The notes under the pieces were generated by a model. The model had not been told where the DNA came from and did no database searches. It worked only from the letters and a program-made list of their open reading frames with translations. DNA of 64,000 nucleotides from Archaeoglobaceae archaeon (lineage in GTDB: Archaea; Halobacteriota; Archaeoglobi; Archaeoglobales; Archaeoglobaceae). The translations under genes and the position numbers were made by a program. The stretch's first letter is position 1, and each line of letters starts with the position of its first letter. Where the stretch lies: assembly GCA_038734275.1 (NCBI GenBank), contig JAVYOO010000011.1, positions 1 to 64,000 on the forward strand, in the 5' to 3' direction. Below are positions 55,012 to 56,319 of the stretch, in pieces.

Positions 55012-55527
55012 TTAGAATCCTAATTTGAAGTCTCTTCGCTTCCTTTCGATGAATTTCAAGACTGTAGAGTGCTGAGCACCGTTTATAAGCATGTTTATTG
55101 CTTCTCTTGCAATAGTAACATTTTCAAAGTCCCCAATAATCGAAACAAAGTTGTTGTAAATGCTAAGATTCACATTTAGCATGTCTTCAATTTGTTTTTT
55201 CATAGTGCCTTCTTTTCCTATAATTCTGCCCAAAATTCTCTGCATAGCTTTTTCTGGGATTAGCTGGGATAGATCGATAGATTCGAATATTAGGTCTTCA
55301 TTTTCGAGGAGCTTCAGGCTTATTTCTGGACTAAAACCTCTCGAAATTGCTGTTATAACGTTTTTCACCTTCATCAGACTTAAACTGTCCGGACAGTCAA
55401 CTATCACAACATTTTTTACCACTGAAATTTTGCATCCGCACTTCTCTTCAATTTTCTTCTTATTCTCCCCTTCTTTTCCCAGAATTACCCCAACCCTATC
55501 TTCTGGAACTTCAATCTCGAGTCTCAT
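55012..55527 (-). CDS. KH-domain rRNA-processing protein (Dim2/Pno1-like)
   Basis: A 171-residue protein with two KH domains: [21 protein letters not shown] and [20 protein letters not shown] carry the GxxG loops (GKEG in each). This fits the archaeal homologue of Pno1/Dim2, a small-subunit assembly factor. ATG 55527 has GGTG six bases upstream; GTG 55536 lies at that site. It overlaps the RIO1 gene by 17 bases; RIO kinases and Dim2 both act in late 40S/30S maturation. Confidence 0.9.
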
Positions 55528-56152
55528 TTCTTTCACCTACAACTTCCGCGTATACCTGATCCTCATCCACTTTCACTCCAAACTTGCGGAAAAATCTAAC
55601 GAGGTTTCTAATGTCTCTTCTTAAAAATTCATTTGCTTTTGGGTGGTCTATCAAAACAGCTTGACCCATGTCAATTATCACAGGCTCTTCGAGTAGCATT
55701 ATGTTGTATTCGCTGAGATCAGCATGCACGAGTTCTGCAACCTGATAAAGCTTTTTCAGGTTTTCCATAATTTCATCGAATATACCATCTACGTCGAGTT
55801 CAGCCAGTTCTTTGCCTATTTCAGCAAGAGTTGGGGCAGGAATCTCATTTTGTCCAATGAATTCCATTAAAATAACATTTTTAAGAAAAGCATAGGGTCT
55901 TGGAACACGAACACCGCTCTCAAAAGCTCTTTCAAGATTTCTGAATTCTTTTTCTGTCCAAAGGTAAATTTTATCCTTCGGAGCAACTCTGTAATCGAAT
56001 CTTCGGTCACCAAAAATGTATTCGTCCATTTTGTCAAATGAGCTCGTTTCAATTCGGTAAATCTTTACAGCCATCGGCACAACTTTGCCCTCGAATATTC
56101 CATCTGCATAGAAAACATTTGCTTCTTTGCCCGTGCTCACAACACCTCCCAT
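55511..56152 (-). CDS. rio1: RIO1-type serine protein kinase (from first ATG; N-terminus extends upstream)
   Basis: A RIO1 kinase involved in small-subunit maturation. From ATG 56152 it has 213 residues: nucleotide loop [16 protein letters not shown] with the catalytic Lys, [12 protein letters not shown] hinge, [11 protein letters not shown] catalytic loop and IIDMGQAV metal motif. The first ATG falls within the conserved NGVISTGKEA region, so the protein is too short. About 46-53 further codons in frame upstream (to 56311) encode the expected RIO1 N-terminal domain (for example [11 protein letters not shown] and [17 protein letters not shown]) but contain no ATG, GTG or TTG. Confidence 0.9.
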
Positions 56153-56311
56153 CGCTTTTATGAACTTCGTTGATAGCTTATAAAGAACCTTGAGGGTTCT
56201 TGTGTCAAGAACTTCTGCATAGATCTTTCTGTCTTCTTCACCTATCTCCTTTATCCTGAGTTTGTCAAGAAGCCTGTCAAAGTTTTCGATGCAATTCCTA
56301 CGGCTAAGATC
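56153..56311 (-). other. In-frame N-terminal extension of RIO1 without canonical start codon
   Basis: This stretch is open in the RIO1 frame back to a TAA at 56312-56314. Its translation reads like the winged-helix N-terminus of archaeal RIO1. The only possible near-cognate start is ATC at 56288-56290 (then [14 protein letters not shown]). A TATA box at 56311-56319 would put the transcript start right at that codon. Either a non-canonical start is used or a single-base error or mutation hides the true ATG. Confidence 0.6.
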
Positions 56312-56319
56312 TTATAAAT
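56311..56319 (-). promoter_or_regulatory. TATA box of the rio1-KH-topA transcript
   Basis: On the minus strand the box reads ATTTATAAG, overlapping the stop of the upstream gene. The spacing predicts a transcript start near 56290, at the start of the RIO1 N-terminal domain. Confidence 0.45.

Follow-up and report, generated by a model that had tools for sequence, protein, structure and literature searches.

Predicted initiation at AUC or AUU on a leaderless rio1 mRNA in a genus of Archaeoglobaceae

Gene content of the rio1 locus

The window, by which we mean the entire stretch of 64,000 nucleotides analysed from the genome of an Archaeoglobaceae archaeon (G000), encodes on its minus strand Rio1, a kinase that matures the small ribosomal subunit in other organisms. 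The rio1 frame opens after a TAA codon (56314-56312), continues with GAT CTT AGC CGT AGG AAT TGC, then ATC (56290-56288), then GAA AAC TTT GAC, and runs to a stop at 55511. No ATG, GTG or TTG occurs in this frame between the TAA and an ATG at 56152-56150, which confirms the claim of an earlier sequence-only reading of the window that the N-terminus of Rio1 is encoded upstream of any canonical start. We propose that the coding sequence occupies 55511-56290 (259 codons plus the stop), with the ATC as its first codon and the ATG as codon 47. Its predicted product matches the crystallised Rio1 of A. fulgidus (PDB 1zp9; E = 2.4e-112) and the Pfam RIO1 family (E = 2.6e-58).

Analysis of the predicted protein bears out the further claim of that reading that a start at the ATC gives a protein of normal length: it is collinear with A. 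fulgidus Rio1 at full length, N-terminal helices and catalytic motifs included, with the segment encoded 5' of 56152 aligning from residue 6 of 1zp9, and the start signal alone differs. The nucleotide loop, the catalytic motif and the metal-binding motif of the RIO domain are all present, as is the N-terminal segment that precedes the domain, which is under purifying selection. The same reading erred in placing the ATG at 56152 inside the nucleotide loop region; it lies a few codons upstream of the loop (STGKEANV), and the Pfam RIO domain starts about ten codons past it.

The gene upstream of rio1 (56320-57123, minus strand) encodes a membrane-type protein that ends in ...RGRWKG, for which no family match was found, and its stop codon lies 29 nt 5' of the ATC. 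A BRE/TATA promoter (GGGGTAAATTTATAAGAT; 56309-56326, minus strand), recognized by a promoter matrix, has as its box the TTTATAA at 56318-56312, so that the in-frame TAA that closes the rio1 frame upstream lies within the TATA box itself. Downstream, a gene on the same strand (55012-55536) overlaps the 3' end of rio1 and encodes a KH-domain protein (arCOG04150, Pno1/Dim2-like) that is universal in archaea and is probably another small-subunit maturation factor.

Start codons of rio1 across the genus

G000 belongs to the genus of hot-spring Archaeoglobaceae that contains WYZ-LMO2, and rio1 was found in eight of the nine other genomes of this genus. Three of these, all separate assemblies (G007, which is WYZ-LMO2; G001; and G004, which is JZ-3_D_bin_138), likewise have no canonical start. 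Alignment of orthologues, which the sequence-only reading had proposed as the way to learn which codon replaces ATG, places ATC (G000, G007, G001) or ATT (G004) in one and the same column; this is the sole near-cognate codon that the four species share there, and it is followed in all four by GAR (GAG in the three relatives). No conservation at the protein level was found 5' of this column in the four ATC/ATT species.

The remaining five genomes (G005, G006, G008, G002 and G009) have a canonical rio1 start, either ATG or GTG, which lies one to three codons 5' of the column in G005 (ATG AGA AAG ATA GAA), G008 (ATG AAG GTA GAA) and G006 (GTG AGA ATT GAG); at the column itself in G002 (GTG); and several codons upstream in G009. 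The column also encodes isoleucine in G005 and G006, both of which have canonical starts upstream, and conservation of the codon is therefore by itself no proof that it is used as a start. The third-base bias at the start codon (ATA in none of the four species) is not significant; ATA makes up 35% of isoleucine codons.

Rio1 of the distant genome G032 (1.07 Mb in a single contig) is also encoded without an in-frame canonical start near its N-terminus (reverse complement, around AGAAGGGCCGAACGATTACG). An ATG stands in another frame just upstream (ATGTCAAATAAGAAGGGCC), and the arrangement looks like a one-base frameshift, whether real or introduced by sequencing.

Promoter position and the predicted 5' end of the mRNA

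Across 1.61 Mb of G000, TTTAWA boxes located before the first ATG show a sharp peak at 26-30 nt, with 23-33 genes per position at 26-29 nt, 10 at 30 nt and about 3 elsewhere. The TTTATAA box of rio1 begins 28 nt before the ATC. The transcription start at about 56290, which the sequence-only reading had predicted from the TATA box, is thus calibrated, because boxes of this kind pile up 26-30 nt before ATG genome-wide. A promoter position matrix was trained on 116 leaderless-type genes of G000 and used to scan 110 nt upstream. Its best site before the ATC or ATT lies at 28 nt in G000, 26 nt in G007, 26 nt in G001 and 29 nt in G004, with genome p values of 0.001 to 0.0001, and no matrix site at leaderless distance was found upstream of rio1 in G005, G006 or G008. 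In each of the four ATC/ATT species the base at -1 is a pyrimidine and that at +1 is A; the -1 pyrimidine is found in 87 of the 116 leaderless-type genes. No Shine-Dalgarno (SD) sequence at a usable distance from the ATC or ATT was found in G007, G001 or G004, and G000 has at most a weak AGGA. The promoter at leaderless distance, the pyrimidine at -1 with A at +1 and the want of a usable SD together lead us to predict a leaderless rio1 mRNA whose first codon is 5'-AUC or AUU.

If the mRNA were not leaderless, rio1 might be translated from a polycistronic transcript of the upstream gene, by reinitiation or scanning to the ATC or ATT. The upstream gene is on the same strand and ends 28-30 nt before the start, and in three of the four species an SD-like relic (GGAAGGAG) stands at its end. 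This relic, however, is more than 30 nt from the ATC or ATT, too distant to serve as an SD, and the promoter at leaderless spacing has been kept while the sequence of the spacer has not; on this evidence we consider polycistronic translation improbable, and a leaderless transcript the better account of the four loci.

Evidence of translation upstream of the first canonical start

Translation of rio1 almost certainly begins upstream of 56152. Codons 2-46 (56153-56287, minus strand), a conserved N-terminal segment located 5' of every canonical start, differ in pairwise comparisons of the four species by 0.50-0.89 per synonymous site (pS) and by 0.047-0.109 per nonsynonymous site (pN), a pattern like that of the rest of rio1, and 36-42 of the 45 residues are kept. 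In the same species pairs, 4-12 of the last 20 bases of the spacer are identical. The spacer of G004 is 1 nt longer, and hence the spacer is not coding. The coding-potential score in G000 is maximal when the ATC itself is used as the first codon of rio1.

Initiation at the first canonical codon, the ATG at 56152, would drop the N-terminal helices of the kinase and retain the nucleotide loop, and it is the only start that conforms to the rules. Against it stand the strong purifying selection on codons 2-46 in all four species; the different position of the first canonical codon in G001, which has TTG at codon 47 and GTG at codon 27 as its earliest canonical codon; and the promoter-like site, which is at leaderless distance from 56290 and not from 56152. 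A kinase without its N-terminal helices is accordingly a very improbable product of the locus. Still harder to credit is an N-terminus supplied by a canonical start in another frame with a frameshift, or by an mRNA containing an intron: an out-of-frame TTG is present at 56295-56293 in G000, but a frameshift from it is rejected on the ground that ATG, GTG and TTG are absent from every frame of G007 and G001 between the promoter and nt 49 of the proposed coding sequence, and the lack of conservation of the spacer argues against both variants. Read-through of the stop codon from an in-frame ATG at 56332 was also considered and set aside; the ATG/GTG and TAA in question are merely relics of the upstream gene and are absent in G004.

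Loss of an ATG through faulty sequencing or assembly, or through a recent point mutation, has a negligible probability. In its favour, G000 may have been assembled from a metagenome, and a single base change would turn either AGG or ATC into ATG; against it, three more species, separately assembled and near-saturated at synonymous sites between them, keep ATC or ATT together with a leaderless-spaced promoter and have no canonical start. Of the two possibilities that the sequence-only reading had left standing, the rare leaderless non-canonical start is thus the one supported, and an assembly error or a point change in a single strain is excluded.

Other candidate non-canonical starts

A scan of 93% of G000 found no other gene in which a conserved coding maximum starts at a near-cognate codon and the promoter has leaderless spacing; a genome-wide habit of ATC/ATT starts was not seen in it, rio1 being the only conserved gene of this kind. 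A homology census of 750 conserved open reading frames against 1.2 Mb of the family relative G014, a portion of that genome that excludes its rio1, left one credible further case, cbiG (in G000, contig C2:134582-135322, minus strand). This gene has no ATG, GTG or TTG in seven Archaeoglobaceae species, G014 included, and in all seven an invariant GGAGGT precedes ATA by exactly 7 nt, a possible instance of a conserved SD-led ATA start. The case is weaker than that of rio1 because some of the conservation could be due to the overlapping C-terminus of cbiF (RRSxLY). Leucine codons ending in A make up only 23% of leucine codons. The cbiG regions of G000 (C2) and G004 (contig C9) share about 98% of their DNA sequence and 100% of their protein sequence, whereas the Rio1 proteins are just 80% identical; recent transfer, recombination and bin mixing are alternative explanations. 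Elsewhere on the same G000 contig (C2:94614-100779), a series of coding-like frames that lack proper starts is probably a decayed mobile element.

Proposed mode of initiation and its origin

The initiator tRNA gene of G000 (contig C5) is ordinary, with a CAU anticodon, an A1-U72 pair and a GGG/CCC anticodon stem, and aIF1 is present. This rules out fidelity relaxed by the loss of aIF1 or by a changed initiator tRNA, and decoding of AUC or AUU must then involve a mismatch at the third base. Judging from the comparison of genomes, AUC or AUU is very likely the start codon of a leaderless rio1 mRNA that is read by the ordinary initiator tRNA(CAU). In the mechanism that we propose, rio1 would be transcribed from its own promoter, with transcription starting on the A of ATC or ATT in the four species; AUC (AUU in G004) would form the 5' end of the mRNA and would be used as its start codon; and the initiator Met-tRNA(CAU) would pair with it despite the third-base mismatch and place methionine at position 1, giving a predicted N-terminus of MENFDR, not IENFDR.

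In the sister species G005, G006 and G008 rio1 overlaps the 3' end of its upstream neighbour (by way of GTGA in G006), an arrangement typical of translationally coupled genes. The four ATC/ATT species have a TAA at the end of the upstream gene, followed on the same strand by a promoter-bearing spacer of about 29-31 nt. The alignment suggests that overlapping genes of an ancestral operon were parted by this spacer, that the old canonical start of rio1 was lost, and that a former isoleucine codon just inside the gene may thus have become the 5'-terminal start codon. The AUC/AUU start probably arose once; the Rio1 tree, in which the seven-species clade is poorly resolved, groups G000, G007 and G001 together with G004 beside them, and is compatible with a single origin.

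Comparison with known systems and significance

The bacterial gene for IF3, infC, has an AUU start with which initiator tRNA(CAU) pairs despite a mismatch at the third base; the gene is led by an SD and is autoregulated through IF3. It resembles rio1 as a gene of the translation apparatus with a conserved AUU start and in the mismatched initiator tRNA(CAU), which for rio1 is a prediction; it differs in being bacterial, SD-led and IF3-autoregulated, whereas rio1 is an archaeal kinase gene that is predicted to be leaderless, and any regulatory likeness is one of analogy. By that analogy, a weak AUC/AUU leaderless start could act as a control device in which discrimination by aIF1 couples the supply of Rio1, and with it the maturation of the small subunit, to the condition of the initiation machinery, a suggestion that we regard as doubtful.

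Known leaderless archaeal mRNAs begin with AUG, GUG and occasionally UUG (PMC7531240). The rio1 mRNA, as predicted, shares with those of Saccharolobus (PMC11698992) and Haloferax (PMC7531240) the start of transcription at the first codon and the absence of an SD, and differs from them in having AUC or AUU. In a Haloferax bgaH reporter with a very short leader or none, GUG was weaker than AUG by a factor of 5-37, and UUG was undetectable (PMC4574771); such strictness of haloarchaeal leaderless initiation argues against a leaderless AUC/AUU start. The same paper mentions a single report that GUC can initiate translation in Halobacterium salinarum (Srinivasan et al. 2006); so far as that citation describes it, the report likewise concerns initiation outside AUG, GUG and UUG on a leaderless archaeal mRNA, but at one codon in one haloarchaeon, whereas AUC/AUU of rio1 is conserved between species. 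Among 61,358 reconstructed AUG starts in 36 prokaryote groups, a switch from AUG to AUU was counted once (PMC5622118).

Gene finders restricted to ATG, GTG and TTG would truncate Rio1. Reporter work indicates that start-codon rules are apparently strictest for leaderless mRNAs, on which neither an SD nor a leader helps the ribosome; the retention of AUC or AUU by four species in a conserved ribosome-assembly gene offers a natural test of this strict leaderless rule, and suggests a way in which an internal codon can be turned into a start once a promoter has arisen between overlapping genes.
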